From: Isoetes taiwanensis
Taxonomy: Eukaryota > Streptophyta > Lycopodiopsida > Isoetales > Isoetaceae
Direction: 5' to 3'
Length of the DNA: 64,000 nt
NCBI GenBank assembly: GCA_021234155.1
Contig: JAJEKV010000011.1
Span: 9,279,712-9,343,711 of the forward strand
Of this stretch, positions 12,887-61,778 are shown piece after piece. Both the position numbers and the translations under genes were made by a program. How positions within the stretch are numbered: the stretch's first letter is position 1; each line of letters begins with the position of its first letter. Under the pieces are notes generated by a model. That model did not search any database, was not told the DNA's origin, and worked only from the letters and a program-made list of their open reading frames with translations.

Positions 12887-14783
12887 CCTGGCACAACTGT
12901 TCGAGTAGGGACAGCAATTTGAACCAATAACACCTTATAATGCCAGTTAACATTTTCTTCCAAAAACTTCTCAAAGGCAAGGAGCTTTTGAGGGATGCCC
13001 TTAATCATATCCAGAAGGTCAACGCCCAACGTAACCTGTTTGGAAGCATCATTTATTATAATAAAATAAGAGTATCAACTCAATACAGAAACATGCATTG
13101 TGCAAACCTTTCGACCAGCAAAACGAGCACGTAACTCTTGAATTCTATGTTTCACAAGGTCAGTTTCAGTTGTTGCTGTGAATCTTTCTGAATCGATGCC
13201 AATTGGAAACTGCAAAAGGCAGAAGCATATACTTCAAAGATTAACATCCTTGACAAATTTAAAACTAATACAATCACATAAAAATGAGAGAACTTTCTAG
13301 ATACCGCTGCAACACGTGTAAGCTTTCCCTGGTCTTCAAAACCTTCTGGAGTGCCTTCTAACCCTAAGATATGTGTGCATGCACTGACAAAACGTCTAGC
13401 ATAATCGTATGTATGAAACCTGAAGGGCAAACAACAAAACTCCATCTTAAGACATAGATTGCACTCTAAGAAAGGTGATCTTACCTTGACATTCAGAAGG
13501 TAGAAAAAGCTAGTCATTTTCCCTCTAACTGAAGACAAAGCAATTAATCTCGCTCCACGGAAGACTTACCCGACCAAATCTGCCATGAGTACGACTTGCA
13601 GAAGCTCTGAACGTAATGGTAATGTCCTATATATTTCTGAGGATGGAAAAGGTGTGTGAAGAAACCATCCAACTTTTATTCTGCTGTTACCCTCCTTCAA
13701 AAACTTCGGAAGAAACATAAGATGATAGTCATGACACCAGACAACATCCCCCTCATTATAATGCTTAGGGACCACCTTTGCGAAAAGCTTATTGGCTTCT
13801 TTGTATGCATGAAACTGAGATTGCAAACTTCTGGTTGCAGCTGTCTGTTGTCTTGACGAAGCCCTATGTAATAGAATAGTGGCCAAAGAACATTGTTGCA
13901 GTAGCCATTGTAATACTGATCAACAGTATCTTCATCAAGGAACACTGGTATAAAACCCGACATGTAAGGAACAAAGGATTGTAACTTCCATCTATGGGAC
14001 ATACAAAGACCATGACTAGGAAAATCAACTAAATTTGTAACTAAATAAGTATACCTCTTTTTGCATGGCTTCCGATAAGGATGCCTTCCTTTTTTCATCC
14101 TGCACATTGACACCTGGCCATCCAATCCATGCGGCTTCGAAGTGCTTCACACTTGTAGATATGAATCATCTAGGAAGGTTAGAAACGGTAACAAAAATCC
14201 TGAATGACAGGGCACTTTATTTGCATGTCCATTAGCAACTAAGTCCCAACAGAGCATAACCAGATTCAACAACGAGGCTACGGCAAGCTTCTAAATTTCA
14301 AAAGTTTTGAACTACATAATAAACCGAAAACTGTGGACCCAAGGCGATGCATATACATAATCAAGGAAGCTTTAGTTTGTATGGAGCAAAACCAACTGAA
14401 TTCGTAAGTAAAGAAAAGCTTACCAAGTAGTGACTTACGACATCTCCTGCAGTTTGGAGCTCCAAATCCCATAAAGTTTCGATCCTTCAATTGCAGAGAC
14501 AGGGAGTCTATTGGCCACAACAAGCAGCCTCTGTTTTGCATGCCAGCTCTCTTCTCTGCTGCTCGATCCTTCCACACCTTTCCCTGAACACTTTTCTCGA
14601 GAGCCATTGTCATTTCCTCCGCTTCCAGGCCTCTGGATCCTTTTCTCTGGAAGAATTTTACAGGTTATCTTTCCTAAATTGCCTTTCTCTAAGTAATCTT
14701 TCAAGCCTAGATATGGAACCATTTGTTAACGGTGTCCCAATTCCAAAATCGGGGTCAGAAAGAGAAGCGGTGCAGTGAGGCAT
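12887..14783 (-). pseudogene. TPS1-like: Truncated class I trehalose-6-phosphate synthase pseudogene
   Basis: Trehalose-6-phosphate synthase makes trehalose-6-phosphate from UDP-glucose and glucose-6-phosphate in the cytosol. Exons can be placed by eye at 14,783-14,439, 14,151-14,055, ~13,957-13,570, 13,419-13,315, 13,209-13,108 and 13,035-~12,887. They give, in order, SRLERLLRERQFRK (the class I N-terminal extension), QRLLVVANRLPVSA, AAWIGWPGVNV, IPVFLDEDTVDQYYNGYCNN, GDVVWCHDYHLMFLPK, KVGWFLHTPFPSSEIYRTLP, FHTYDYARRFVSACT and GVDLLDMIKGIPQK. The sequence ends at IAVPTRTVVP, roughly a third of the way through the Arabidopsis TPS1 protein. The rest of the synthase domain and the phosphatase-like domain are absent. 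At least three frameshifts (after RKDNL, before the catalytic part of exon 1, and near 13,845) and a damaged splice acceptor before exon 3 show that it is dead. Confidence 0.93.
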
Positions 14784-40357: not shown

Positions 40358-43300
40358 TCAGTTATGTACAAAAGTGTGAGGAGTGATGAGAGAGGGATCC
40401 AGGACGTCATCATGTTCATTTATGCCATCCTCATCACCTTCACTTCTTTCACTATCACTAGAGGAAGTGCTTGAGTTATCTTCCTCATCACTATCAACAG
40501 ATGGTGAAGCATTGTCACCATCTTCTTCATCCTCTTCTTCGTAATTACAAGCTTTTTTAAGCAAATTGATAGTCCTCTGGCGTAGACGATTGTCAGATTT
40601 CAATTTAAAATCATAGCATAATATAGTCACGTCATTAAGGATCAGCTCATCCCTACAACCCACCTTCTTGGACTTTCTCCCTTTTCCTTGGCTTCTCATT
40701 TCTAACTCATGTCTACCTTCAAAAGCATTTTCTGAACGTGTTGCAAGCCAATGAATCTTGAGTTTAGTGACTAAGCCTTCCTCCTTGACTGTGTCAAGCA
40801 CTTTTGCTATCCAGAAAGGTCGATCTTTGTCATCCTCCTCAGTTGGAAGAGCAATTAGCATACCCTTGGTAATTTCTGTGATATTACCTTGAGGCTCATT
40901 CTTGCGTCTTGGTCCGAGGTACATGACTCGATCCTCGTCTTCTTCTACTGCAGGTGCTAAGGTAGCATTGCTTGGACCTGCTTGGTGCTGGGGTTGATGG
41001 AAGGTGTTAGGCCATTGAAATGGTTCTTGCAACTGTCTTAGAGCTATATTTTTCACAACAATTTTCTGTTCGAGAAAGAAGTTACTCCACCACATCCGAT
41101 CTTCTTCTAAGAAGTACTTAAAGCCTGAGGAAATTCCATTTTCAATGGCTTTTAAGGATGACTCGTGGGTACTTTTTTACGCTTGGACTCCTTAGGATTT
41201 TTGAGAGGAAGTTGTTCAAAGACGTTCTACTGAAGGGAAGTGTGCGGAATATATTTAGGGAAGCGTAATCCCTTTGGTGGACTCCAGTCCTTAGTTGTGG
41301 TATACTTCTTGCCACAGAAGAAACTCGGCCATCCTTCAAGTAGAACTTCATGTGATGTTGAAAGGTGAGATCATTCAATTTGTTCACGCTTTTGTTCTGC
41401 ATGCGAACGTTGAGAGAAAATAAACTCTCTCGAAGTCGGCGGTCTCTTTAAGAAGAAGATCGACTTTGGAGTGGGAGTGTAAGAATCTTCAATAATTCGA
41501 ACTAAAGTAGGAGGAAGAGAAAGCCTTCTTCCTTCCGAGGCTTACTTAAAAATCACTGAACATTTGGTCAATTTGATCATGAGTGTGGCCTACAAGTAAG
41601 AAACCCGACTTCACTTTTCTAAAGATCCCTAGCTCCACTAACATGGCACAGTACGCAAAGAGTGTTTGGTTCTTGTTCTCCCTTGTAGTATTGTCAAGTT
41701 GCAGGTAAAGCACTGGTGGTAATTGCTCTTGCTCGCACAGGACCTTGTTAAGAATTGTAATTGTGAGGTTCGGGCACCATGCAAGTTTGGATACGTCAAG
41801 AATACTTTGCACTTTAGACTTCCTTTGAAGACCATAGCTCCTACAAGGTGGATCTTAACAAAACATTCCTCCGGCACATCTTTAGGAATGTTCAAGAAAT
41901 GCGGTAGAGTTTTTTTTTTTTTTTGGTCCATTCCATCAATCACAACAGACATATATATTGCAATTGGACGTTCAAGAGCTTTTTTTTTCTATGTTTGGCA
42001 AGCTTTCTTCTCTCACGCTTGTTGTTCACGATGTGCGGCAAGGTTACGTTGCACAATATCTCGTGAGAAGAAATGAGGTCAAAGCATTATATTTAAAACA
42101 AGTGAGAGATTGGAGAACATGAGCTTACTTCTTTTCGACCTCTGTCTTTGCGGTTTCTCTTTGACTCTTTAATTACGCACACCTTGAGCAAGCGGACATT
42201 CTATGTCTCCCGGGAATTTTCACTAAACCGAATTCACTTTTCCACGGTCACGGTGAAGTGTGAGTAAGAGATGTCTTTGAGTGCAAGTCTCTTTGTACTC
42301 ATTAAAAACATCTTTTTTGGTGATGTTATCAGTTAAATGATACATGTTACTGTTAGGCAGCTTCTCACATGTTTCTCTAAAATATTTCTCCATCCATGAC
42401 ACAGCAGCAAGGGCATGCATGGTTACAACTCTTCTTGGTCCACAATGATCATCAATTACTGGATTTTTGTCCAGTCTTTTGTGTATTCTAGACATTCTGG
42501 TGGACCCTAAATGGTGGACAACCATAATGCATTTCTGGCAAACTTCTTGATGGTTAATGTAGTGCAAGAAGGTGTTGCGGTCTGGTCTTACATGATAGGC
42601 CAAATAGGCATTCTGGTCAGCCAATGTCATTGAACTGTAGTTGTCTCTAATTGCTCGTAATTTAGCCATGTTAAATTTGTTGATACAACCCAATGAGCAG
42701 CATTTACTTCTTAAAAGTCTTCTCATTTTGTGCTCGTCCATAAGGTTTCTTCTTCTTACAGAGGAGCATGCTCTCAAACTAAAATCCACCTTGAATTTCT
42801 TGGTGGATTGGCTAGAGAATGTGTAATCTCGTTGCACTTTGTTGGTGTCTTCATCTTCTGAAGAGAGTTCTACTCTGGGGGTGACCTCCTCTACCCTTAG
42901 TGGTGTGCTTGTAGAGGAGAACAAACCACGTGAAGCTGTACCCGGACAAGGCGGAGGTGCAGTGTTGAATGAAGGAGATGGGCCACCATATGATGTGCCA
43001 GCGAAAGTTGTTGTAGCTGCTTCACAAGGAGTTCGATCAAACATGTCTCTTATAGCAGACTGAAATTCTGCAAAACCATGTGTCACCACGGTTGTGTGAA
43101 GAGGAGTAGATGTTGCAATGTCGTCTTCATTTGTTGTGAAATCGTGGTGGGAGAAGCTGTGGTGAATCTCGCAGTCTTCAGAACGTGTTGTATTCCTTGT
43201 TTGTGTAAGTGAAGATGGAGAAACTACAAACGGCTGAGGTAGTCTGTTTCGAAATATTCTCTGAGGTCGAGCATTTGTAGTGTCGGGGGATGGTACAAAT

Positions 43301-43554
43301 GGTGGTGGAAGATTGCTACGTGCAATAGGTGAGGGTTGGAAAGGTGGTGGCAACCGGTTTCCTACTGGACTTGGAGAGGGTTGGAAAGGTGGTGGCAGTC
43401 TACTAGTTACTGGACTCGGAGTGTCTTCGAGAAGCAACAAAGACCTTGTCGAGGTAGGTGTTGAAGAAGCATCTCTGTCTTGTGTTCCATTTGAAGTAGA
43501 GGTACTTGGGCAAACAAATGGTGGTGGAAGTTTGTTCACGAAGCGGTTAACCAT
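40358..43554 (-). pseudogene. DUF7869-type transposase-like gene (RNase H fold inferred), decayed
   Basis: Translation on the minus strand starts at the ATG at 43,554. The N-terminus has five Pro-rich units around RLPPPFQPSPS. A Cys-containing region follows with CSLGCINKFNMAKLRAIRDN, then VCQKCIMVVHHLGSTRMSRI, then (41,950-41,560) VVIDGMDQKK, VLYLQLDNTTRENKN and LVGHTHDQIDQMF. These are the hallmark strings of the eukaryotic DUF7869 family. Their three conserved Asp positions suggest an RNase H-like catalytic core, but that is inference. The last exon (41,095-40,358) has PFWIAKVLDTVKEE, then LKIHWLA, a chromatin-reader-like barrel, and an acidic DEE/Ser tail. Frameshifts near 41,810 and 41,340 and stops around 42,000-42,200 break it. 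Several introns are likely, and the exon borders are approximate. Confidence 0.75.
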
Positions 43555-43632
43555 GTTGAACAACTGCAAAAAATTGTGGACTTGTTACTAACTCACAAGT
43601 CGATTGGACTAATGATATTCGAGAATACAAAT

Positions 43633-44216: not shown

Positions 44217-44463
44217 TATCTTCTTGAAAACACTAATTTTTTTGCACTTGAACACCACTTTTTAGCTGTAACAGACCACTTTTTAGGTTGAACATACCAC
44301 TTTTTAGTCCAATTAAGACATAAAAATTGTGTTGGAGAGACAATATTTGTGTTTTTTTTCTTGTCTTTTGCTAGCCTTTAGGGCACATGATTAGTAAATC
44401 TTATTCTGGAATATAGCTTTCGTCTTATTTTCTGTCTTAACATTGTTGTCTTAAACGTTTCAG

Positions 44464-46123
44464 TGGCAGGGAAGAAGGCAGCAAAAGGGCATAAAAAAAA
44501 CTGTGAAGATTAAGCGTCCACACCCTCAAAAGCACACCACTGACACGGACGAGCCTACTATTTACGAAAACTTTCAAACGCAGTGGTTCATTACCAGGGG
44601 TGCAGACGGAAAGTACAGCACACTGACGTTTCTGTACGTCTGTAAAAGTGCTGGGAACAAAAGGTACGCCGACACAGAGTTCGTCAACCTTGGGACAATT
44701 AAAGAGGTCTCAGAGGTAGCCGGACAAGGAGGTCAGGCGACAAGGCTATCCTTCAAGACCTCCCAAGGGTTCATTGTTGTGGACATCGCCTTCTTTAGAA
44801 TTGTCAGTGTGCAACCACAGGCACTGTACAAATTCTTTTCACACTACCGGACTAAACGCAGCCTGTCTTCACTAATTAGACAGGTTTGTACTAGTACAAG
44901 CGAAGACTTTCCTGTAAGTGAGTCAGAGCAATCAGATGGAGGACCATCACCTTCTCCTAGTAATTCCGGGGGGTCATCAGATGGAGGGTCCCAAGACCTA
45001 GAAGAGGAAGTTCCACCAGTGCTGCCAAAGAAACTTAGCAGGCCAAGAGCCACCATAGCCGCTAAGGAACCAAAGAAGCGGAAGGTACAGCAGCTTGAAG
45101 TTGCTGAAATCCCCGAGGAAAGCACAAAAAAACAAAAGGGAAAAGGAAAAGCTCCCGGGGTAGCAATAAAAGAAAAGAAACTTGATAAGACCTCCGAAAG
45201 AATGGAGGTAATAAATGCAGAAAAATTTGTACAAGGGGTGATCTATCTTCTAGTAACTTGCATGAGGCTGCCCCCAAAGAATGAAGCTGGTGAAAGGCCG
45301 CTTCATGTTCGTAAAATATATGCCGACCACTTAAGGAACCTGAAGGACAGAATTAGGAGCAATCCTAATGCTCATGTGGTGCCAATAGTTGTCCTTGTTG
45401 ACAGGGAGCAATGCAACACCCCCCAGGACTATGACAGAGAAAAAGCAGACACTTACACTCACTACGTCTTGGGAGGAAATCATAGCTTCAAGGCAAGAAG
45501 GCAGCTGTACAAGGAATAAAAGAACCCCAGGTATCTCTCCGTCCTGTGCGCAGTCTACTGTGGTCTCACCGACGAAGAAGCAAAAATCGTTGCCAACACA
45601 CACAATGCTGACAACGAGTACAAATTAAAGATGAGTTTTGTCGACAAGATCCGGTTCATGCACAGGGAGTACATGATTTTTAAAGAAAAATATGGAGAAG
45701 ACTTGAAGAAACCAGCGTACTCCTTAGAACTGAAGGAAGCTTGCGCAGTGGAGTGCTGCCTCAAGTACGACGAGGCTAACAAACGGCAGTCACTCATACC
45801 GCATGACAACTGGTTTCAATTAGCCTTCAGAGATGGCAGAGTAAGTTTCTTTTGTATTCTGAAATAACTTTGTTGCCCTCCGACTGACCTCGGTTATTAC
45901 TGTGCAGATATGGGACCTACAAAACGAGATTTTTACCATGTTCGAGCGTGGTGAATTGAAAAGTAAAGGAAAGGTCTCAGAAAAGAAAAAAGGTTCTGAT
46001 GTCCCAAAAAAAGAAATGACGATAACTGTGTGGAGAGAAATGCAGGGCTTTACAGACATGGACATACTAGAAGGTCGTAGACAAAGAATTTACTCTAGAA
46101 GAAATGTCCAAGGAACTTCACAG
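44464..46123 (+). pseudogene. ParB/sulfiredoxin-like domain half of a ParB-DNA methyltransferase gene
   Basis: Exons 44,464-45,840 and 45,908-46,123 are joined in phase by a 67-nt intron. The frame first gives an unidentified domain (about residues 1-125, with FITRGADGKYSTLTF). A Ser/Asp/Glu-rich linker with a nuclear-signal-like PKKRKV follows. Then comes a ParB/Srx-like segment: IYADHLRNLKDRI, HVVPIVVLVD, then YVLGGNHSFKARRQLYKE, where GGNHxxxARR matches the DGxHRxxA signature. An in-frame TAA at 45,517-45,519 is followed by conserved-looking sequence in the same frame (CAVYCGLTDEEAKIVANTHN), so it is a nonsense mutation, not the gene's end. The last exon ends in phase 0 at 46,123, and its partner exon starts at 60,332. 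No ATG is in frame in the first long exon. A start at 43,888 leads into a stop after splicing, so the start is unresolved. Confidence 0.68.
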
Positions 46124-46166
46124 GTAAGAACGATAGAACTTTCGTTTTAGGTTTCTTTCCGTAGCG

Positions 46167-46284: not shown

Positions 46285-46903
46285 ATCATTAGGGCGGATT
46301 TGGGGTCTGAAAATGGCCCTTATCTTGGGTTAAAGATTTCCACGTCAGATTCGCCAGGACCAATCAGGTTTGCGCCTTTTTTACGAAAGTCAGTATTACT
46401 TGGCAAGTAGAAGGATGAGCAGGCTTACTTGGCATCCACATGGCGTATTTTCATAGGGGATGCCTGCGCTTTTATTGCAACCATTTTAATGGCCCGTATT
46501 TTTCGGGAGTCGCTTCGCCGCCCAAAATAATGGTGACTTTGACCGCCACCTTGTCCCGCCACCAACTCCCTTTGTCAAATTTTGGCGCCAAACTTGATCT
46601 TGTCACTCCGCGCCTCTACGTGCATCCTCTCCGCCTTCACTCCTCATCCGCAATCCATGTCTCCTGTAATTTCGTGTTCTTGCCCCATTTACGTAACTCC
46701 CAAGGTCAAGAAGTGGTAGGTTTTGTCTCAATAGGTTCGTGGGTGAGTATGCCGCCATCAACGAGGGGCGAGCATAGAGTTAGCGACAAAGGCGATCAGA
46801 CGTGCGGACACATTGGATAGGTAGGATAAAAGAGTTCAAGTTGAATTCTAGCGGCCGGAAAGTGGAAAGTATAACAATACGACATGCATATACCCCTTCT
46901 GAT

Positions 46904-47959
46904 ATGGCCAAAGAGCTAATCTCCACCAAAAACAGCTTCCCAAAATTGCTCGCAAATGGTAACCACCTTAATCGGATCACACGACGCCGGCTAGTCTGTA
47001 ACCTACTTAACTGCGTAGAGATAGTTTCGTCGGCCGGTGATCTCCTTATCTTTTCATTTCTTTCGTTGACACGTGTTTACAAACAAATTTATTGTGCAGG
47101 TTTATGTTTATCAGACGTCGTGGATGTCATTCCGGCCGAAAGTATTAGTAGTGTACTTGTCGTGTATCACATAGACATCGGAATTGTCCTTTTCCAAGGT
47201 ATGGATGCCGTGACCTTGCGGGGTATAGGCATCTGGTTTTACGGACATGATTATAACGTAAAGGTCAGGAAACCGAGCTTGAGGCCGGTTGAATTGCCCC
47301 CTTTAAGTGAACTTTGTAAGCCACGGACTAATGAGAACAATGTAATTGCAATGAAGAAATGCATGGCTGACGAGGTGCAAGCGGGAATGTCTGAAAACGG
47401 AGGCGTGAGGATGAGTTTCAAAATCTTCACACCGTTTGAGGTATTTGCTAATATATTCCAGATGGCGCAGGAAGTTCGAAAAGCTCCGAAGACATATACG
47501 TGCTTTCTCCCCCCTGCCGATTTTGTGGATGGCTTATTTTTTGTTCCGACCTGGGATGTTCGATTCCACGAATCATCCGGTCAACTAACAGAGGTCCGCG
47601 TAGTTAAGTCCTCCTTTAAGTTCAGATACTTTCTTCCAAAACAATATTTATACGTTAATTGTCAACTAGAACGAAGGAAACAGAAAAAGAGAGGCTGCAC
47701 AACTTTTTGGGAGCCGTTTGAGGACCATAACAGACACTCCGATGCGGTGGATATTCGAGTATGGAGAGGGGAGGAAGTCATTTATACAGCCACCATGGAA
47801 AGCGAATGGCCATTATCAGAGCTAAGAGTGCTAATGGAGACAGAGGAGATTGCTGACGACTTCCATTATTTTATTGATGGCATTAGGGTTGGTTACAGGC
47901 AAGAGGGAAATGTAAAGTTTAGTGAGTTCGCGATCAACAAGAAATTGTCTATCGCCTAG
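46904..47959 (+). CDS. Orphan protein gene, intact, 330 codons with one small intron
   Basis: No family was recognised. The frame is open from the ATG at 46,904 (an in-frame stop lies upstream at 46,781) to the TAG ending at 47,959. It contains a 63-nt segment (47,037-47,099) with GT and a pyrimidine-rich TTGTGCAG end. Removing it keeps the frame and deletes an odd hydrophobic stretch, so it is probably an intron, giving 330 residues. Visible features are a Pro-rich hinge with RPVELPPLSEL, a VYVNC-like beta-rich middle (FKFRYFLPKQYLYVNCQLE), a basic ERRKQKKRG, and a C-terminal EWPLSELRVLME ... YFIDGIRVGYRQEG ... SEFAINKKLSI. That ending looks like a ubiquitin-like beta-grasp fold, but this is a weak visual guess. 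It is the only undamaged gene of the inner element. Confidence 0.6.
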   Translation: MAKELISTKNSFPKLLANGNHLNRITRRRLVCNLLNCVEIVSSAGDLLIFSFLSLTRVYKQIYCAGLCLSDVVDVIPAESISSVLVVYHIDIGIVLFQGMDAVTLRGIGIWFYGHDYNVKVRKPSLRPVELPPLSELCKPRTNENNVIAMKKCMADEVQAGMSENGGVRMSFKIFTPFEVFANIFQMAQEVRKAPKTYTCFLPPADFVDGLFFVPTWDVRFHESSGQLTEVRVVKSSFKFRYFLPKQYLYVNCQLERRKQKKRGCTTFWEPFEDHNRHSDAVDIRVWRGEEVIYTATMESEWPLSELRVLMETEEIADDFHYFIDGIRVGYRQEGNVKFSEFAINKKLSIA

Positions 47960-48169: not shown

Positions 48170-49079
48170 ATGGCAAGAACTAAGCAAACTGCAAGGATCC
48201 ATCCAGGTGGTGTAAGGCCAGGTGATTACATTAGTCCGCCTTCTTCATCTGACTCTGAAGTCTCTGATAGAGATTCTCCTCCTCCGACCATGCCTAACAG
48301 AAGACCCGGAAAAGAAATCCGCATGACAGACGGCGGGAGAAGCAGCTCCGGAGTAAGTAGGGAGGTGCACTCCGGTTCGGAGACAGAGGATGAAAATGTG
48401 AGAGACCGGCAAGCAGAATATGACGCCGGATTAATTATTGGGCAGCCGCCTCTTCTTGCTCTTTTTCCTGCTCCTCCCCGCCTCCCCGTGGAGGTGCCAG
48501 AACTTCAAATCAAAGGAGGAGGCTCAACGCCTTAAAGGGGAAGGCGACCAGAATGTGAGGAGACTACGGAAGAGTCGGGCCGAGGAACAGCCCGCAAATG
48601 CTCGGGTGAGGAGGCAGCCGGAAGAGACGGCCGAGCAACAGGCTCCAAATGCTGCGGTGGGTGAGGGTAGTGGCCGAAGCGAAGACTAAGCCTCGGCATT
48701 AAAGTGCTTCGCGAGATTAAGAAGTATCAAGAGCACCGGGAGATGGTCATTCCGCGCCTCCCATTTGCTGTGCTCGTGAGAGAGATTCTGCAAGAGTGTG
48801 GTGCGATACATCATACCGCCATGTAATTCAAGCAATCAGCTTTAAATGCTCTTCAAATGGCTTCGAAGCAGCTTGATGCTCTGGCCTGTTTCGAGGACTC
48901 GCAGCCTTTGCAAAGAATACATGCCAAGCGCAAGGATCGTTATGCCCAAGGACGCGACTCGCCTTACGCATAAGGGATCCCGAAAGTACTATGGTCAAAA
49001 TTTTATGGCTGAATACAACAAGAAGAAAGACCCCGTAAAAAAGGCCGTGAAGTGCCTTTGTGTTTTTTCATATGTATAA
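48170..49079 (+). pseudogene. Divergent histone H3 with a canonical ARTKQTAR tail start, decayed
   Basis: Histone H3 pairs with H4 in the nucleosome core. The ATG opens MARTKQTAR, identical to residues 1-8 of H3 including Lys4, then IHPGGVRPG, where Lys9, Ser10 and Lys14 are lost but the GG is kept. A long Ser/Asp/Glu-rich insert follows (to about 48,687, with one frame change). The histone fold is then recognisable. Frame 48,689 onward gives LGIKVLREIKKYQ (alpha-N), EMVIPRLPFAVLVREILQE (alpha 1), FKQSALNALQMASKQL (alpha 2), then FEDSQPLQRIHAKR. After a frameshift it continues IVMPKDATRLTHKGSRKYYG (alpha 3, compare IMPKDIQLARRIRG) and a Lys-rich C-terminal tail absent from normal H3. A TAA inside the fold (about 48,821) and two or more frameshifts make this copy non-functional. 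The tail plus long linker suggests a specialised variant. Confidence 0.83.
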
Positions 49080-49182
49080 TATTTCTTAATGTAATGGCTT
49101 TATAAGCTTAATCTCTTAGTCCATTTCTTTCTTAGAAGCCTAGCTTCAGACTTTGTATTTTTTTTTTTAATGTTATACGTGA

Positions 49183-49252
49183 GGATCACACGACCTTGCA
49201 GCAAGCATTGTGCTTTTTGTTGCACATAGTAGTCTTCGGCGTCGTGTGATCC
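49183..49252. promoter_or_regulatory. GGATCACACGAC inverted repeat after the H3-like gene
   Basis: A perfect 12-bp inverted repeat, GGATCACACGAC ... GTCGTGTGATCC, with a 46-bp loop, lies ~100 bp after the gene's end. It is the best of at least five related inverted repeats in the element. The telomeric repeats begin at the next base. Confidence 0.8.
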
Positions 49253-49300
49253 AACCCTAACCCTAACCCTAACCCTAACCCTAACCCTAACCCTAACCCT
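49253..49300. repeat. (AACCCT)8 telomeric repeat (TTAGGG type)
   Basis: Eight perfect AACCCT units follow directly after the inverted repeat and end in AAAATATACGG. Most land plants have TTTAGGG telomeres, so a TTAGGG tract inside a mobile element is unexpected. It could be a captured telomere, a healed end, or the product of a telomerase with the TTAGGG type. Confidence 0.97.
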
Positions 49301-49436
49301 AAAATATACGGACAAATCTCCCCACAACGGTTGTGTCCCCTTTCATAATCGACAAACGGCTACTTGAGTTCAAAAGTGACAAAATACTTTTACCGCTCCT
49401 AAACATCTTCTTGTTTTCGCTGCTTGTTTTCGGGCC

Positions 49437-50932
49437 ATGGATTGTTATGTGAAGTTCCCGGAATGGTATGCATCCGCCCCTCATGACAACGAGGAAGTTG
49501 CGCCGACCGCGATTTATCCGTTCTATTGCAAGGAGTTGGACATCATGGCAAAAAAGAGCGAGCTTGATGCTATCGCGAGGTTGCCTTAGCTTTCACCCGG
49601 GACCGCTTGGTCTCGCCAAGACGCCCTTTGCAGATGTCCCTGGCTCGTGGATTCCAAAACCAGCTCTAGAGGAGGCGGCTTCCCATTTGCAAACAACGAA
49701 GATGTTTTTCAAGAATGCTGCGCAACGGGCTCCTCCTGGCTGCGTCCTTGTGCTTAAGAAGGTATCTTATTTCTCTTTGCCGTTTGCATTTGCTAGTTAT
49801 TGCATTCTGCTCGGCCAAACCGAAGATACACTGGAAACAATGAAATCTTTAAACCAAGGGGGTCAGTTATGTGTGATGATGCTGACTATGACGTAGAAAT
49901 GGAGATAGATCTACAAGAAGAAGAGCAAGAATGTAGGAGTTTTAGCTTCGACGCACTGGCCTTGGGTGAACCAGAGGAGGGAGATGATTCTGAAGGTGAT
50001 GAGGATGGGGATGAGGATGAAAAGAAGTTGTCTGACATAACGCCAATTTTAGTGGAAGGCAAAGAATACCTATTGCTAAGTGATATACTGAGGAACCCGT
50101 CTTTGTTACTTAATGTGTGCTAGGGAAGACGAGCTTATTTTACCTTGGCGAATGGGTAAACCTAGGCCTAGATTTTGAAGAGGATTTGGACAAAGAGATG
50201 TTTGAAGTGTCTAATTACACCGCAATGCTATAAAGCTTAAAAGAAGCCTATGAGAGGCTGGAGTCTCGATTTGCTCAAGAGGAGGCTTAATCTACCAACG
50301 GAAGAAGAATTCCAGCTCTCGCGTGCAAAGCCGCCAACGGGATCTACAGGTTTATGTGCCCTTCATCAATCAGGGCAAAGATAAGCCTCATAGATGAGGA
50401 GAAATGTGAAGAAGATAAGCTTGAGGGTTCTTATTTGTGGGAAGTAGATGATTTTTCTTGCCGACATGCACGCGGGGACAGGAAAGATTGAAGGACTCTA
50501 CATTGTTACGATATATCTCAAGATTCGTTAATGGGGAGATAATCGTCTTCGGCAGAACTTTCAGTCCAAAAGGTGCAGAGTTTGTCTATTACATCCGTGC
50601 ATTATGCATGTATGTACGGTAACCATTCCCAATTGGCATCAAACACCGAAAGGGTGATAGCAATTGGGCGGGATGTTGTGCTACAATATTTTGACGACCA
50701 AGCCGGTCTCATGGGAGCAGCAATATGTTAAATTTTTAGTCTGGCCGGCTTGACTCACCCAAGGTTGGAAGCCGGGGTCGATAACATGGAAGTCATTGCC
50801 TTGTTGGATGGGCGTAGGGGATTGAAAGAGCATGAAATTGACGAATTTAAGCTTGAGAAATTGGAAGTTATATGTTTGTCAACTTGTATCGGTAAAATTA
50901 TTTATGTACGATTGTCCTTCCTAGATTCCTAA
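49437..50932 (+). pseudogene. Decayed gene for an unrecognised acidic protein
   Basis: From the ATG at 49,437 the frames, taken in turn, give WYASAPHDNEEVAPTAIYPF, then FADVPGSWIPKPALEEAASH, a probable intron starting at 49,761, and a strongly acidic stretch EPEEGDDSEGDEDGDEDEKK (about 49,970-50,030). They continue with PILVEGKEYLLLSDILRNPS, FYLGEWVNLGLDFEEDLDKE, AYERLESRFAQEEA, RYISRFVNGEIIVFGR, VVLQYFDDQAGLMGAA and EAGVDNMEVIALLDGRRGLK. Composition stays coding-like over 1.5 kb, but at least five frameshifts or stops occur. Acidic tracts of this kind are common in histone chaperones. That role is only a guess, prompted by the H3-like neighbour. Confidence 0.5.
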
Positions 50933-51120: not shown

Positions 51121-51192
51121 GAAGACCGATGTCCACGCTGACCTCCGACGGCATCATCATCTTCTACTTCCGCCTTCCACCTTACGCTCAAG

Positions 51193-51580
51193 ATGGCATC
51201 ATCATCTTCCTCTAGCAAGCGACCACGCCAAGATAGCACTCCCCAGCGCCCAGAGCTGCCCGTGGACATCACCCTTGCAGTGGTGATGAAGAGATTCAAG
51301 GAGATCCATGATGAAAACAACCGTCTCTGTCGCCGAGAACAATGAGGCGGCCGATGCATTAGCCTTCACGAGGGGAGCCGGCCAAGACGAAGCGAGACGT
51401 TGAGCTCGTGGAAACATTCGCCATGTACCAAGAGGCTACGAAGCCGCAGGCGAGGGCGCAGGTTGAAACTGCTCACATGATTTCGCAGGCCTTAGAAGAT
51501 ATGGAGAAGAAGCCCGAGCGGGAGGAGGATGAGAACGCACCTTTACCATTTCACCGCAGGACATGAAAATCAGCTAGAGG
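51193..51580 (+). pseudogene. Small coiled-coil gene family, copy A
   Basis: The ATG opens MASSSSSSKRPRQ, a Ser-rich start with a basic patch, then ELPVDITLAVVMKRFKEIHD. A TGA at 51,343 closes the frame after 50 codons. Beyond it, in other frames, the sequence continues as an alpha-helical, charged region (ELVETFAMYQEATKPQA, HMISQALEDMEKKPEREEDE), as in copy B, so the original protein was about 125 residues. Ser-rich start, ELPxDI motif, then coiled coil is the family plan. No known family was recognised. LPxDI recalls the start of an F-box, but the rest does not fit one. Copies B, C and D follow at ~0.9-kb intervals. Confidence 0.6.
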
Positions 51581-51690
51581 ATCATGAAGATCCCTAGGCG
51601 TTGTATCTATCTATTTTTGCTTCAAAGAAAAGTTTTTCTATTTTTGCTTCTATCTATCCTCTTGTTCCAATGTATGTTCTGTTTTATTAA

Positions 51691-51770
51691 ACTATCACAC
51701 ACCACGCCAAAATGCCTTGCTTGCAATTAGGTAGCAATCAATCGGATTTCGCGCCGCGGTGATCTCCATG
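51691..51770. promoter_or_regulatory. Imperfect ATCACAC-type inverted repeat after gene A
   Basis: ATCACACACCACGCCAAAAT faces ATTTCGCGCCGCGGTGAT. The loop TTGCAATTAGGTAGCAATCA is shared with the equivalent position after gene B (52,572-52,642), so the whole 3' region was duplicated with the gene. Confidence 0.6.
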
Positions 51771-52017
51771 CCATTCTATTTTGCTTCAATGAGAAGTTCT
51801 ATCTTTAGTTATGTATCGGTAAAATTACTTATGTATAGATTGTATCACCGAAATTATCAATAAAAATTATCACACGAAGCTTTCTCTCGGAAGAAAAAGA
51901 CGTTAGAAGAAGTAACGGTCCTTTTTCCTCACATGACGCGAGAAGTAACGGTCCATTTTCCCGACCCACTCAAGATCCTTCACGCGTCGGTGACTCAAGC
52001 TACTACGAAATCCCTGT

Positions 52018-52025
52018 TATAAATA
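52018..52025 (+). promoter_or_regulatory. TATAAATA box, family gene B
   Basis: TATAAATAGAAGACC lies 109 bp before the ATG and is followed by a strongly pyrimidine-rich leader (CCTCTTCCGCCTTCCGCC). Confidence 0.7.
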
Positions 52026-52126
52026 GAAGACCTTCTATCTTGCCTTCGACCTCCCGATCCTCTTCCGCCTTCCGCCCTACGCTCATCTTCTCTCCTTTCC
52101 GCTTCTTCCGCCTTCCGGCTTCTCCG

Positions 52127-52500
52127 ATGGCATCTTCATCCTCCTCCAAGAAGTTTAATCGCGCCCAGAGCTGCCTACCGGACATCACCCTTGCCGTGGT
52201 GATGAAGAGATTTAAGGAGGTTCACGAATTAAAACAAATTGCCTCGGCCGCCGGTAGAAGATGGAGGCGGTGGACGTGTTAGAATTCACGAGGGGGCTGC
52301 CGCGATGAGCGAGACCTTGAGCTCAAGGGCAACATTAACCAGTACCGAGAGGCCAATAGTCAGAGGGTCGAGGCGCTTTAATCGCGACACAATATTTCGC
52401 AGCGCTTAGAAGATATGGAGAAGAAGCTTCCGAGCTGGAGGATGAGAACGCAGACTTTACGGCCAGCCTACGGGATCATGAAGATCCGTAGCCATTGTAT
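52127..52500 (+). pseudogene. Small coiled-coil gene family, copy B
   Basis: MASSSSSKKFNRAQSCLPDI runs into TLAVVMKRFKEVHE, closely matching copy A. The frame ends at 52,282 after 51 codons. Further on, other frames hold QRLEDMEKK and an ending with GIMKIRSHC, parallel to the AxDHEDP-type ending of copy A. The ELP motif is shortened to LPDI. Like A it is broken by frameshifts after the conserved motif. Confidence 0.58.
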
Positions 52501-52571
52501 ATACATTTTTGTTTCAAAGAAAAATTTGCTCGTTTCTTGCTTCTATCCGTTTCTCTTGTTTTGTTTTATTA

Positions 52572-52642
52572 AAGATCTGACGACGACGCGAAATGCCATT
52601 CTTGCAATTATGTAGCAATCAATGGATTTCGGCGTGATGATC
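52572..52642. promoter_or_regulatory. Imperfect inverted repeat after gene B
   Basis: GATCTGACGACGACGCGAAAT faces ATTTCGGCGTGATGATC, with the same loop sequence as after gene A. Confidence 0.6.
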
Positions 52643-53011
52643 TCCACAACGCATACATCGTTGTATGTATAAATTCCTAATTTATTAATGGAAAAGTATA
52701 TGTAACACAAATATCTAGCTAGATTATGTGACAACTTGCGTGTAAATGCGAATTTGCATGTGGATGACAACGCCTATTCACATAACGCGGGCTTGTGGAT
52801 GATAACGCCATGCCAAGGACGTGGCATGCGCCGCCACAATAACACCGTTTTTTGTACGGCCTCGCATACAAGACGGCTAGGGATATGACGGATCCCATGA
52901 TGCTAACATAGGCTACCGTTGCCTAATTGCATGCTATAATTTCGCCCGTAGGATTATTACAAAACTTTATCCAGACTGCAACCGTGATATTCCAACGTGA
53001 TCTCTAGTTTC

Positions 53012-53020
53012 TATATAAAA
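53012..53020 (+). promoter_or_regulatory. TATATAAAA box, family gene C
   Basis: Lies 101 bp before the ATG and is followed by the pyrimidine-rich leader (CCATCTCTCCTGTTCTCCC). Confidence 0.68.
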
Positions 53021-53112
53021 GGTCGGAGGCCTTTGTCTTCTCCTATCCGGCCATCTCCTCGTTTCTACCACATCCGCCCTCAACCATCTCTCCTGTTCTC
53101 CCATCACTTTCA

Positions 53113-53540
53113 ATGGCCTCCACTCCGGTTCCATCCCCGCCGAGATCTTGTCTAAAGTTTTGGTCAAGGAAATTCGTAACATTCGTGGGAAGCGAGGAAC
53201 GGATCCGCCTTCTAAAAGAAAAAAGAATGATTAAGACGCCGCCAAGCTGGTTCTGCGGCAGAGGAAAAGGCCGCCTTCTATAGGGAGGTGATTTTAGTGC
53301 GCGACAATCGGCCGGGCTGTTTTAGACCGCTGAATTGCGCCACACGAGATATAGCCTCCAAGAGAGGCTTAGGGCCGCAATCGGCGGGGAGAGGCTGCCC
53401 GAGCTCAACTCGATGAGCGGGAAGATAAGGTTGCGGAATATGAGAACGTGGTTGCGGGGCGTGCAATCATGTTGGAGGAGCAGTAAAAAATTATCACCGC
53501 CCTCCGTGAAGAGCTTGCCCCGGCGATCATAGGCATCGGG
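53113..53540 (+). pseudogene. Small coiled-coil gene family, copy C
   Basis: The ATG opens MASTPVPSPP. After a frameshift within 30 bp the family motif follows as IPAEILSKVLVKEIRNIRGK and SKRKKND. A coiled-coil part with EDKVAEYENVVAGRAIMLEE, a stop, then ITALREELAPAI closes it. It is more diverged than A and B. The same promoter plan and 3' inverted repeat support common descent. Confidence 0.52.
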
Positions 53541-53683
53541 CTCCTCCTAGAGGGGGGCTTTTTTTTTTTTTAATGTTTGTAATGGTTTTATTTCTCAATG
53601 GGAAAAGTTTTTGACAAATGTGCCGAATATTACGTTTCCTATTTTTAATTTTTAATATCCGTGGTAGAGAGAATGACAAGACA

Positions 53684-53748
53684 GATCACACGAAGCGAAA
53701 CCCTTCATAGGGTTTTAAAGCTCGTCTGCAGATTTCGCGTGGTGTGAT
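53684..53748. promoter_or_regulatory. GATCACACGAAGCGAAA inverted repeat after gene C
   Basis: ATCACACGAAGCGAAA faces TTTCGCGTGGTGTGAT (14 of 16 positions pair), ~140 bp after the gene. Confidence 0.75.
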
Positions 53749-53888
53749 ACAGTGTAGTTAGAATAGTTATTAATGTGTTCCAGCGGACAGTACCATTAAT
53801 GTGTTCTAGCGGACAACCCATTGAATCCACTGACACGCATGCATGCAAAAATTTAATCGCGTGTTTAATATGTTCAAGCGCTAATATG

Positions 53889-53896
53889 TATAAATT
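53889..53896 (+). promoter_or_regulatory. TATAAATT box, family gene D
   Basis: Lies 93 bp before the ATG, with the usual leader (CTCCTTCCGCCGG ... CGTCCCTCC). Confidence 0.65.
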
Positions 53897-53981
53897 GAGG
53901 TCCTTGCATTGTGCTCCTTCCGCCGGTTAGAGTCTTTGCTCCTCACTTCTATAATCTTAACGTCCCTCCTATTTGTCATCT

Positions 53982-54530
53982 ATGGCCTCCACATCCTCAA
54001 CCGCTGATAAGGGAAAACGCAAGAGGATAGAACTCCCTTCTGACATAGTGTTGGGTGTTCTAATGAAGAGGTTGAAGGAGCAAGATGATCTTCTAAAGGA
54101 AAACGCCGTTACAATTCAGCGTAAAGAAGAAGAGAATGAATTCAACCTTCTCATGCTTCGTGAGCCGAGAGGCAAATCAAGCGGTTGAATAGAAGGTCGG
54201 ACAGATGACATGCCCCAACAACCGCAGACCGAGGTGGTTATGACGGCAACGCAGGATGCTAATTCAGCGTAAGAACACGTTGTGCTATTGGGACAGGAGC
54301 GGGACATGTACAAAGAGATGGTGGACAGATTGGAGGAACGTTTGGATAGGGTGATTGCTCGCTTGAGGGGAATAGATGAAGACGAAGACGAGGACGGAGC
54401 TGATGATGATGATGAAGATAATGAAGAAGAGCTCGTGACCGGAGCAACAATGAGTCGTTGTATTTTGTTTTTCAATGTAACATCTTTCACAACTTTAATC
54501 AAAAGTAACCTTTTTATTATTATCTTGTAA
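53982..54530 (+). pseudogene. Small coiled-coil gene family, copy D (longest)
   Basis: MASTSSTADKGKRKRIELPS leads to DIVLGVLMKRLKEQDDLLKE and a heptad-like NAVTIQRKEEENEF, ending in a stop at 54,188. After frameshifts the helix continues (GQERDMYKEMVDRLEERLDR, VIARLRG) into an acidic tail IDEDEDEDGADDDDEDNEEE, with a stop ending at 54,530. The basic start, coiled coil and acidic tail would suit a dimeric nuclear or chromatin-associated protein. That is inference from composition. Confidence 0.58.
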
Positions 54531-54610
54531 AGCTTCACACGACGGAAGCCACATAAATGCAAGCAATAGCTTAAACTCCACTGCTCAAGGCCAGATGATC
54601 TGAGATAAGA

Positions 54611-54677
54611 TCACACGACGCCGAAGCTACGGATTTGTGCAAACAAGGTTGGAGGCAAGTACTTCAAGGTCGTGTGA
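54611..54677. promoter_or_regulatory. TCACACGAC...GTCGTGTGA inverted repeat after gene D
   Basis: Perfect 9-bp arms with a 49-bp loop. A further single arm, TTCACACGACGGAAGCC, lies at 54,534. Confidence 0.75.
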
Positions 54678-54789
54678 ACATGCTACACATTACAAGTATA
54701 TTTTTACCGATTCTTTGTCTCTTAGATCTCCATTTGTTATGCGATGCTAGTGGGGCCCTAGAATTTTGCCAAGCAACTTTCCGCTTTCT

Positions 54790-57354: not shown

Positions 57355-57394
57355 ACCGCGTGGATCGCACGGCGCGAAATGAAGGTGTACAATT

Positions 57395-58025
57395 TGTATG
57401 CCCCAGCACAATTCGCTTCGTTTGAGGCTCAGTCCGTACTAACCTCGTTTTTGAAATTTGCAACGTGCATATGGAAATCGAAAAGTCTATTCTCCTACAA
57501 TCCATGCTTTTATACAAAAGCAAATTCAAAATTCGAATTGTAGGGGGGCGGGAAGCCTGTATTGGGATGAAGTAAAGATCCCGGTTACGAACTTTTAAGG
57601 CGCAATCGCAAATAAAAAACGAAAAGTCTAATACAAAGCTTCAACCTACACATTCAAATTTTGAAATGTAGAAGGCGGGAATGGACTCTAAATGAAAATA
57701 GGGCAAGACAAGATCGGTGATGCGCATGATTGGTATCTGACAAACCAAGAGACACCGTCATGAGTTGCCGGTATGCTATAATGCAAGTGGCTTTTTAGAA
57801 GCGCCCGCGGTTAAGGCCAATCTGTCTGACAACCAACAGAATTAAATACATATGGCGCCATAGATATGCGATTCCCCTTATTCCGGGAGAATATTCCAAG
57901 CAAATCTGACGAGAAAAAAGGGGCGGAAATATGACGTGGAATGGCTGATAGGAGGCCATTTTGAGACCCCAAATCCCAAGGAGCGGAAATATGACGTGGA
58001 ATGGCTGATAGGAGGCCATTTTAGT
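57395..58025. repeat. Duplicated right-end segment, internal copy
   Basis: Aligns with 59,440-59,995 in the same orientation. Shared strings include TTTGAAATTTGCAACGTGCA, CTGACAAACCAAGAGACACC and ACATATGGCGCCAT. It ends in GGAGGCCATTTTGAGACCCC, a truncated version of the right terminal repeat, followed by a second tandem copy of GAGCGGAAATATGACGTGGA. An old right end of a related element may therefore lie here at about 57,978. Confidence 0.88.
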
Positions 58026-58131
58026 TCATAAAACATAATATAACTTGGAATGATAGATATTTTATATGCAAATGGGAGACTATTGATGAGGGACTTGTGT
58101 TTAATTTTAATTTGACAACAAATAAGAAAGT

Positions 58132-58199
58132 GGATCACACGATGCGAATTTAGTGTGTTCCATTTTTGTTGCATATGTACTATTCGCTTGGTGTGATCC
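58132..58199. promoter_or_regulatory. GGATCACACGATGCGAAT inverted repeat
   Basis: GGATCACACGATGCGAAT faces ATTCGCTTGGTGTGATCC (16 of 18 positions pair), with a 32-bp loop. It is about 360 bp downstream of the minus-strand gene at 58.9 kb, consistent with a 3' position on that strand. Confidence 0.78.
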
Positions 58200-58559
58200 T
58201 TCTTGAAAAATAATATGCTCTTTGAAAAGGGATAATGACTTATGTACTTAAGAGTGGTAACACATGTATAGTAAAAAAAAAAGTTAGGTATTCAAATGGA
58301 ATTAGAAGCAAAAACTTTTTACATTCAAAATTTTTTATGGCCGTATGGCTTTACATCATTTTGTAAATTTAAATGCCCGGAGGCTTCAACTATTCACAAC
58401 AAAAAAGCCCTGAGGCTTGGCACCATATGGTAAGAAGTCGGAGGCAAGCTGGAGGCTAAGAACAAGGAAAAAAAATAAGAGGTGCTCGCCCTAACAAATT
58501 TCATTCATCCGCTTCACCATCCGCAAAAAAAAAATAAGAAATAACCGTTAGTTGAATGC

Positions 58560-59215: not shown

Positions 59216-59439
59216 TGATTTGAGTTTAACCTGAAAATGAACACCGATATAATTCGAATTTAACATACTATTTAATACCAAGATGCTACGTCACACTATG
59301 TCGATAATTGGGATTTAAAAAAAACACCAAACCCTCCTCGAAAAAAACCACGTAAGTGCCGACCTCACTTGTGTTTAAGTTTAATTTGACAACAAGCAAC
59401 TTCCCATCTTGTGTAGATCGCGACGGCCTTGAAATCAAG

Positions 59440-59995
59440 GTGTGGTATTTTTATGCCCCAACACAATTCGCCGTGTGAGCCGAACGTCCATTACTAACTT
59501 CGTTTTTGAAATTTGCAACGTGCATATGGAAATCGAAAAGTCCATTCTCCTACAATCCATGCTTTTATACATTAAGCAAATTCAAATTTCGAATTGTAAA
59601 GGGCGGGAAGCCTGTATTAGGATGAAGTGAAGATCGGTTAAAGTAGACCCTTGGCCTGAAATGAAAGTCTGATCTGATACAAAGCTTCAACCTACACATT
59701 CAATTTTTGAAATGTAAAAGGCGGTGATGCGCACGCTTGGTATCTGACAAACCAAGAGACACCGTCATGAGTTATGCTATAATGCAAGTGGCATTTTAGA
59801 ACCGCCACGTGTTGCATCAGTCCGTCTGACAACCAACAGAATTAAATACATATGGCGCCATGAATGTGCAATCCCCCTTATTCCGGAAGAATATTCCAAG
59901 CAAATCTGTAATTATGAGAGTTTGGTATCCTAGGTGGCATGGGAAAAAGGGAGCGGAAATATGACGTGGAATGGCTGATAGGAGGCCATTTTCAG
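59440..59995. repeat. Duplicated right-end segment, terminal copy
   Basis: Partner of 57,395-58,025. It leads directly into the true right terminal inverted repeat (59,984-60,017). Confidence 0.88.
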
Positions 59996-60029
59996 ACCCC
60001 AAATCCGCCCTAATGATACTTTTGCTTTC

Positions 60030-60331: not shown

Positions 60332-61778
60332 CCAAAAAAACGTTATTACGTGCCAAACGTGTTTAATGGAGCAGCTGAACGTGGACAGCTGGGACAGGTG
60401 CAAAGAGCTCTATCCCATTGCTACATCCGACGAGCGTATTATTCAATACGCTCCAAATTTTGAGGGCTGGGTACGTAGTTTTCCTGTTTTTAAAGTTTTT
60501 CCTTTGTGTTGCATGAAGCTGACTTTAATCATTAACAGAGCAAGAAGAAGAACAAGGACCTGCCAGAAGGTTTTATGCACCTGGTACGAACAGCCAGAGA
60601 AGAGAGGACTCTAGCGGACAGGCGTGTTGTAGATGCTGAGCCGTCCGACTACGAGAGGTTTTCTATATTCGATCAAAATAATTTTTATTCTATCGTTCAT
60701 GGGGACTGCACTAAGTTGCCAGGAAGTATAAAGCCACAAGATTTTACATTGGTCATAGCAGACTTGCCATATGGTTTTAAGCTGAAGGATAGCCGCTACG
60801 ATGATCAGCCTTTCAAAAACTCAGAATTCAATGCTTTCGTCGATGGAATTAAGCAGGTTACCACAGCAAAACACTGGCGTCTTGTTGTTTCCATTCAAGC
60901 ATGCAGGCCGGCCTTGTGGAAGCTACTTTCAAGAACCACTTCGGTTCCCCTATGCAAGCCGGTTATGAAAACATGGTCTGGTGAGTCCTTAAATCAAAAG
61001 TGCCGTTCACGTGTTCTTTCTTTCAAGTTTTTATTCAAGGTTGCAATTGTAACCCGTCAGGGTCTATTCTGGAATACGTACTTACTATTCTGGAATACGA
61101 TCTTGCAGGTACAAGACTAATATTAACTACCATGGTGGAGGACCGAGGCTGCTGAGCAAGGTTGAGTATCTCCATGTAGCTTACTGGAGTTTCGACGGGA
61201 AGCGTACCATGGAGCACTTCAACACAGCAACCTGCCAGAATTTTTCTAATGTCCTAGAGTTCCCAGCAGTATTACAGAAGCTCCAGGACCCAAGTGCACA
61301 AGGCAGAATTGTAAATCATTATCAGAAGCCACAGAAGCTAATCAACCATATTCTGGACATGTTCTCACGTCCAGGAGATTGGGTCCTTGATGCTTTCTCT
61401 GGCTCTGGTACAACAATAGCATGTGCACTTAAAAAGGGCCGTAATTGTGTTGCTGTTGACATTGATAAAGAGGCTGTAGACTTCATCAAGATGAGGTTGT
61501 CTGTTTTACCAACTCTACCAGATGAAAATCAAGAGTTAGGAGCTAAATCATCATCAGATTTTGCCAAGATGACATCCTCTGAGATACAGCCTCCTTTTAT
61601 AAGCTCTCTGGAAGATGAAGCTACCTTTGCAGAGCTCAAAGAAGTAGCTCTAGCTACTATTCCTGAAGAGACTGTAGACACCAGTAAAGATGAAACAATG
61701 ACAAAGGAGCAAACTGCAGAGACGGACAAGGCTGGAACGAGCACACAACATACTGAGGACTTTGATTTAGACCTCTGA
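60332..61778 (+). pseudogene. DNA amino-methyltransferase half of the ParB-methyltransferase gene
   Basis: Exons 60,332-60,470, 60,539-60,980 and 61,109-61,778 join in phase. The frame gives PKKRYYVPNVF, then LNVDSWDRCKELYPIATSDE, then KDLPEGFMHLVRTAREER. Motif IV follows as LVIADLPYGFKL (a DPPY variant) and motif I as GDWVLDAFSGSGTTIACALK near the C-terminus, then NCVAVDID. Motif IV before motif I is the order of beta-class N6-adenine/N4-cytosine DNA methyltransferases, which are bacterial and phage enzymes. DLPY leans to adenine, without certainty. An Asp/Glu/Thr-rich tail follows, and AATAAA occurs at 61,847. One-base frameshifts near 60,365 (extra A) and 60,888 (loss in a T run) disable this copy. 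The first exon is in phase with the exon ending at 46,123, so both halves were one gene. Confidence 0.85.
61060..61101. promoter_or_regulatory. Two TATTCTGGAATAC sites in the last intron
   Basis: CTATTCTGGAATACG occurs twice, 22 bp apart, inside the 128-bp intron 60,981-61,108, extending the motif to a third intron of the gene. Confidence 0.75.

Follow-up and report, generated by a model that had tools for sequence, protein, structure and literature searches.

The 64-kb window (the whole stretch of Isoetes taiwanensis DNA that was analysed) contains a broken gene for an H3-like protein, which lies within a 13.7-kb segment bounded by TIRs. We favor, with moderate confidence, the interpretation that this gene belongs to a 13.7-kb TIR element in the plant genome, that it derives from canonical H3, that it was strongly changed while the element lineage was moving, and that it was inactivated later in the present copy. 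A single copy of the H3-like gene was seen in the 64-kb window. The features of the element and of the gene are collected in Table 1.

Table 1. Coordinates of features assigned to the 13.7-kb element and its H3-like gene (positions in the window).
Feature	Position	Strand	Details
Left TIR of 13.7-kb element	46285..46324	+	ATCATTAGGGCGGATTTGGGGTCTGAAAATGGCC...; 95% over 41 columns to 60017-59977
First element gene, open frame	46784..47959	+	385 aa from GTG 46802
H3-like gene, exon 1	48170..48352	+	MARTKQTARIHPGGVRPGDY...GGRSSSG
Probable intron	48353..48500	+	148 nt, phase 0; GTAAGT donor, pyrimidine-rich acceptor tract
H3-like gene, exon 2, linker part	48501..48689	+	NFKSKEEAQRLKGEGDQ...SGRSED, then stop in that frame
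H3 fold frame	48671..48970	+	GIKVLREIKKYQ from 48695, LPFAVLVREI, IHAKR to 48931; from Pfam, PDB and alignment
H3-like frame end	48939..49079	+	VMPKD and basic C-terminal extension; stop at 49077
Inverted repeat, ~74 nt, non-coding	49180..49254	+	GATCACACGACG...CGTCGTGTGATC; z -5.5
Telomere-like array	49253..49302		(AACCCT)8.3, perfect; abuts inverted repeat
Probable remains of another element gene	49437..50900	+	pieces in several frames; read by eye
Probable small-gene remains	51122..54527	+	shared start MASSS..., LPxDIxLxVxMKRxKE (by eye)
Right TIR of 13.7-kb element	59977..60017	-	pairs with left TIR

Structure of the H3-like gene

The ORF of the H3-like gene opens with MARTKQTAR, in frame at 48,170-48,196, as the exact ARTKQTAR tail reported in a preliminary description of this DNA had indicated. 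The next residues are IHPGGVRP, where H3 has KSTGGKAP. Lys9, Ser10, Thr11 and Lys14 are replaced, three of these losses (Lys9, Ser10 and Lys14) having been noted correctly before, and Gly12, Gly13 and Pro16 are kept. In all, five positions are altered between tail residues 9 and 16, and residues 17-40 are replaced by a linker. Among the modifiable tail lysines Lys4, Lys9, Lys14, Lys27 and Lys36, the gene retains Lys4 alone.

The frame that begins with ARTK stays open through a putative intron to 48,535. A GTAAGT donor is present at 48,353, and the 50 bases upstream of the acceptor are 80% pyrimidine, a level reached by 4 of the 7,881 AG sites in the window, this acceptor included. When donor and acceptor are joined, exon 1 continues in phase 0 into the NFKSKEEAQRLKGEGDQ frame. 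As donor, acceptor and phase all fit, we read this apparent first frameshift as splicing, and the change of frame between 48,352 and 48,501 is probably a 148-nt phase-0 intron. Since the first frame is open to 48,535, retention of this intron in the transcript may also occur. If spliced, the linker is ~107 residues long and mixed in charge (18 Lys/Arg versus 16 Asp/Glu in the 98 residues counted); the long acidic linker of the preliminary description would therefore be found only in a transcript that keeps the intron.

The reading changes from the linker frame to that of the H3 fold at about 48,660-48,690, and the fold starts ~500 bases past MARTKQTAR. Its landmarks follow in order (GIKVLREIKKYQ, IPRLPFAVLVREI, SALNALQ, FED, IHAKR, MPKD), with an in-frame TAA at 48824-48826 inside the fold and a further frame change between IHAKR (ending at 48,931) and VMPKD (from 48,939). 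Downstream of MPKD no likeness to the H3 C-terminus was seen, and a basic extension runs to 49,076 instead. With its TAA stop and no fewer than two changes of frame, this copy is dead.

Origin of the histone fold

The H3 fold spans about 48,683-48,953. In Pfam, the Histone family was matched by the 51-aa piece without breaks (8.8e-6; its 26.4 bits lie exactly on the curated cut-off) and by a 100-aa read-through of one TAA (1.8e-8); the best PDB match of this 100-aa read-through was Histone H3.2 (phmmer, 3.7e-11). We aligned the fold locally to plant H3.1, identical to chain 8kcb_F, and observed identity in 41 of 90 columns (score 155; 500 shuffles gave at most 54). Three length changes fall inside the aligned fold, all of them whole codons (+4, +1 and +1 residues). 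By these sequence comparisons, the fold of the gene is that of H3. The preliminary description had called this fold diverged yet recognisable and had named a profile search as the test of its likeness to H3, a likeness that the Pfam, PDB and alignment results leave standing. From the alignment, we take R49, R72, H113, R116 and D123 to be kept in the fold. These include three (R49, R72 and R116) of the six arginines that presumably contact DNA; of the other three, R63 and R69 have been substituted, and the TAA stop takes the place of R83.

We asked which H3 class the fold most resembles. Its alignment score was 155 with plant H3.1, versus 92 with human CENP-A and 81 with Arabidopsis CENH3. A CenH3 origin was rejected on these scores, and the H3-like gene appears to derive from canonical H3, being nearer to H3 than to these two CenH3s; the short 51-aa piece taken alone leans slightly the opposite way, with fission-yeast Cnp1 (a CenH3) ranked first by 0.7 bits. 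The gene resembles CENH3/CENP-A in its altered tail, its longer inter-helix loop and its ARTK start, the last as in sunflower CENH3, which begins ARTKHPAK (PMC4628103). As this CENH3 begins with ARTK, such a start alone neither separates H3 from CenH3 nor points to readers of Lys4.

A single-sequence fold model (pLDDT 74) found no structural match in the PDB. No relatives at E <= 0.001 were recovered for the frame-joined reading among 930 candidates, from which the length filter omits ordinary 136-aa H3, or for the fold piece among 3 candidates. So few candidates for a histone suggests that the protein database is poor in eukaryotes.

The element that carries the gene

The H3-like gene lies inside the TIR-bounded segment 46,285-60,017. 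The two ends share an exact 27-bp TIR core, which none of 100 shuffles produced, and within the 64-kb window no copy of this core was found besides the two ends of the element. The joined flanks of the element align to an intact palindromic repeat with a score of 73, compared with 34 for the left flank alone, 44 for the right flank alone, and at most 52 for 500 random joins. As most of a palindromic repeat reappears when the flanks are joined, we conclude that the 13.7-kb element is nested in another element, and the mobile-element setting proposed earlier is thereby supported by both the TIRs and the nesting. No clear target-site duplication was seen; the TIR flanks share at most 2 bp, and thus lack the 8-bp duplication of hAT elements. 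In a Pfam scan of 80 of the 150 element ORFs, histone was the sole convincing family, with weak matches to PF23532 (0.00094) and PF14812 (0.0027). As no transposase family was detected in these 80 of 150 ORFs, where decay may hide one, our use of the word mobile rests on the TIRs and the nesting.

The first gene of the element, the 385-aa ORF, may by eye hold an in-frame intron (46,959-47,099). It matched no Pfam family, had no relatives at E <= 0.001 among 1286 candidates, and gave an uninformative structure model (pLDDT 32). A BAH-like look of its first part, noticed by eye, was dropped when Pfam, PDB and sequence searches returned nothing. The scanned pieces of the probable gene remains that follow the telomere-like array contained no convincing Pfam family. 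Two of the small-gene remains are DNA duplicates of one another (51246-51768 versus 52161-52646, 74% identical). The right end of the element is itself duplicated (57360-58022 and 59413-60006, 83-97% in pieces), with other DNA between the copies.

Non-coding stretches of the element hold a family of inverted repeats (GATCACACGACG...), found at 46970-47048, 49180-49254, 52568-52646, 53680-53753, 54604-54682 and 58129-58202. The + strand of the window has 6 occurrences of ATCACACGA, each of them within the 13.7-kb element. Folding of nine stretches gave six with z <= -2 (-2.5, -5.5, -2.1, -2.8, -3.2 and -6.4) and three above this value. The (AACCCT) array next to one of these repeats is of the TTAGGG type; the usual repeat in plants is TTTAGGG.

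An apparent interrupted element is present on both sides (44455-46150 and 60370-61775, both +) and carries palindromic AAAGTGTATTCCGGAATACACTTTG repeats. Copies of the palindromic repeat flank a bacterial-type N6/N4 DNA methyltransferase gene (PF01555, 7e-18) and another ORF, and we take these two genes between palindromic repeats for the interrupted element. The second ORF has a ParB-like GGNHSFKARR stretch by eye and no Pfam match. Elsewhere in the window are trehalose-phosphate synthase exons at 13,155-14,146 (best 1.7e-37), which we take to be of plant type, in keeping with a land-plant host, and a DUF7869 match (PF25273, 3.6e-33) at 41549-41812 (-), near a proline-rich 448-aa ORF at 42223-43569 (-).

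Constraint, drift and alternative origins

The chief alternative, which we hold to be possible rather than probable, is that a host H3 transcript or gene was captured by transduplication, the way in which Pack-MULEs capture host genes, and was then carried unused through many transpositions, its tail tip surviving by luck. Inactivated copies in Pseudocercospora fijiensis provide a precedent (PMC6710886). We compared the gene with 2000 neutral simulations, run to the same fold identity as that observed. The conservative share of the changes was at least as large in 201 of them, and the mean score of the changes at least as high in 205, which makes the mismatch profile indistinguishable from neutral drift. 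At most one stop was present in 722 of the simulations, so one stop is unremarkable. Both of these results fit an unused passenger. Against it, the first nine residues all remained intact in 8 of the 2000 simulations, a stretch that was picked after it had been seen, and the remainder of the tail has been replaced by a long open linker. Selection for the Lys4 end of the tail, as proposed in the preliminary description, is suggested only: the rarity of the intact tip in the simulations speaks for it, and the post hoc choice of the stretch and the ARTK start of sunflower CENH3 (PMC4628103) weaken the case.

Under neutrality, the fold would have needed a drift of 0.34 substitutions per site. Had each TIR arm drifted by 0.34 per site, no more than 2 differences in 41 would be expected with a probability of 1.6e-8. 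As such drift after insertion is incompatible with the identity of the TIRs, we conclude that the divergence of the protein predates the present insertion and happened while the element lineage was still active.

We also assessed the small number of frame shifts and stops, for which the joint P ranged from 0.0001 to 0.24 over the rates assumed (0.002 for 0.34 substitutions per site with 0.1 indels per substitution; 0.24 for 0.2 with 0.05). This scarcity speaks for constraint, and against an unused passenger, at ordinary or high indel rates only. A neutral segment was rejected in a two-segment codon model, in which a host segment under purifying selection, combined with a neutral one, was set against a free omega (2dlnL 8.6; reached in 0 of 200 bootstraps, largest 5.8). 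The model used 82 codons, 4 unrelated H3 genes and a star tree, with several parameters at bounds. It prefers constraint after capture over neutrality, and, as parameters sit at bounds, we trust the direction of this result more than its size. A single-branch codon test (2dlnL 12.0, 0 of 100 bootstraps) was set aside for the two-segment test, since the branch in question also carries the synonymous changes of the host itself. The references were 4 of 6 H3 loci fetched from genome contigs (L001-L006), the other 2, cut by introns, being dropped. The six loci are ordinary-looking H3 genes, some of them intron-cut; they are eukaryotic, lie on six contigs from MAG records that carry a bacterial label, and are probable contamination of the MAG bins.

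Histones occur in some large DNA viruses, and the element could be an endogenous DNA virus with the gene as its viral histone, a reading that we consider unlikely. It would accommodate the several small unassigned genes, which run mostly in one direction by eye, and the inverted-repeat family in non-coding stretches. Yet no viral hallmark family (PolB, integrase and capsid were looked for) was found by Pfam in 80 of the 150 ORFs, where decay may hide them, and splice signals are present in the H3-like gene. Viral contigs contained no confirmed relative of the H3-like reading or of the 385-aa ORF, and the TIR core was absent from them; a search of the same contigs with canonical H3 gave 5 pattern matches, none of them confirmed.

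It is very improbable that a host H3 gene or retrocopy, unrelated to the element, decayed at this site: the copy is indeed broken, and H3 genes are common in hosts, but the gene sits between the TIRs of an element that was itself inserted into another, the identity of these TIRs leaves little room for decay since insertion, and the linker and intron are untypical of a processed H3 copy.

Comparison with known systems

The preliminary description regarded a histone encoded by a DNA transposon as not a described system, a statement that does not hold, since H3-like genes in fungal hAT transposons have been published (PMC3538342, PMC6710886). In the first report, hAT transposons of Pyrenophora tritici-repentis encode H3L, which is represented by ESTs, has tail insertions and altered fold helices, and is neither H3 nor CenH3. 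These elements are 5.6 and 2.3 kb long, contain the hAT transposase, and are present in 26 nearly identical copies, 2 of them with frameshifts (PMC3538342). In the second, by Dhillon et al., the hAT elements of Pseudocercospora fijiensis contain 784 inactivated H3-like copies, with 90% being truncated, RIP-damaged pieces; the elements have 8-bp target duplications (PMC6710886).

The gene described here is likewise an H3-like gene between the TIRs of a DNA element, and thus of the transposon-borne H3-like (H3L) kind. It shares with H3L (PMC3538342) an N-terminal tail with insertions, altered helices in the fold and an adjoining further ORF of unknown function. The two differ in that H3L is found in a fungus, on a small hAT element with a transposase, whereas our gene is found in a plant, on a 13.7-kb element in which no transposase was found, as one broken copy; the plant gene also has the exact tail tip and the ~107-residue linker (if spliced), the tip of H3L lying outside the comparison. 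With the Pseudocercospora elements (PMC6710886), it shares an inactive captured H3 multiplied by a DNA transposon, and differs from them in its plant element without a hAT signature, its own linker and its probable intron. The kind is therefore already known, and the 13.7-kb copy is a striking variant of it and not a first. As far as the literature searched extends, with plant-specific work on captured histones covered incompletely, the plant host, the much larger element without signs of hAT, the exact tail tip and the ~107-residue linker (if spliced) are new.

Proposed role of the H3-like protein

In the history that we favor, a canonical H3 would have kept tail residues 1-8 and its fold core, and a long linker of mixed charge would have replaced H3 residues 17-40; the inactivation of the present copy would have come after this change of the protein. 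The protein may have entered H3 pathways by means of its fold and of the tail tip, which is unchanged and is the part bound by writers and readers of Lys4. Without Lys9, Lys14 and Lys27, it would be unable to carry the marks that plants use for transposon silencing. Such an unmarkable protein could counter silencing of the element from within nucleosomes on it. Alternatively, it could act as a soluble decoy that ties up H3 chaperones and Lys4 readers. The pattern of DNA-contact arginines (R49, R72 and R116 kept, R63 and R69 replaced, R83 on the stop) weakly favors the decoy form. A role in anti-silencing or as an H3 decoy would be plausible. For this proposed function only, a likeness can be drawn to VANC of VANDAL elements (PMC10398659): VANC, encoded by a plant transposon, strips silencing marks, and element-specific non-coding repeats occur in both cases. 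VANC differs in that it binds the non-coding DNA of its elements and is no histone (PMC10398659).

A broader proposal, which we put forward as doubtful, is that an H3 variant of its own, with the Lys4 tip and without the silencing lysines, arose in a lineage of plant DNA transposons; this variant would shield the element from heterochromatin or divert H3 chaperones and readers; together with the H3L of fungal hAT elements, it would represent a convergent, repeated strategy. Should further copies prove intact and selected for, they would provide independent, non-fungal evidence for a purposeful retention of altered H3 genes by DNA transposons, and escape from silencing by means of an unmarkable, transposon-supplied histone would become testable.
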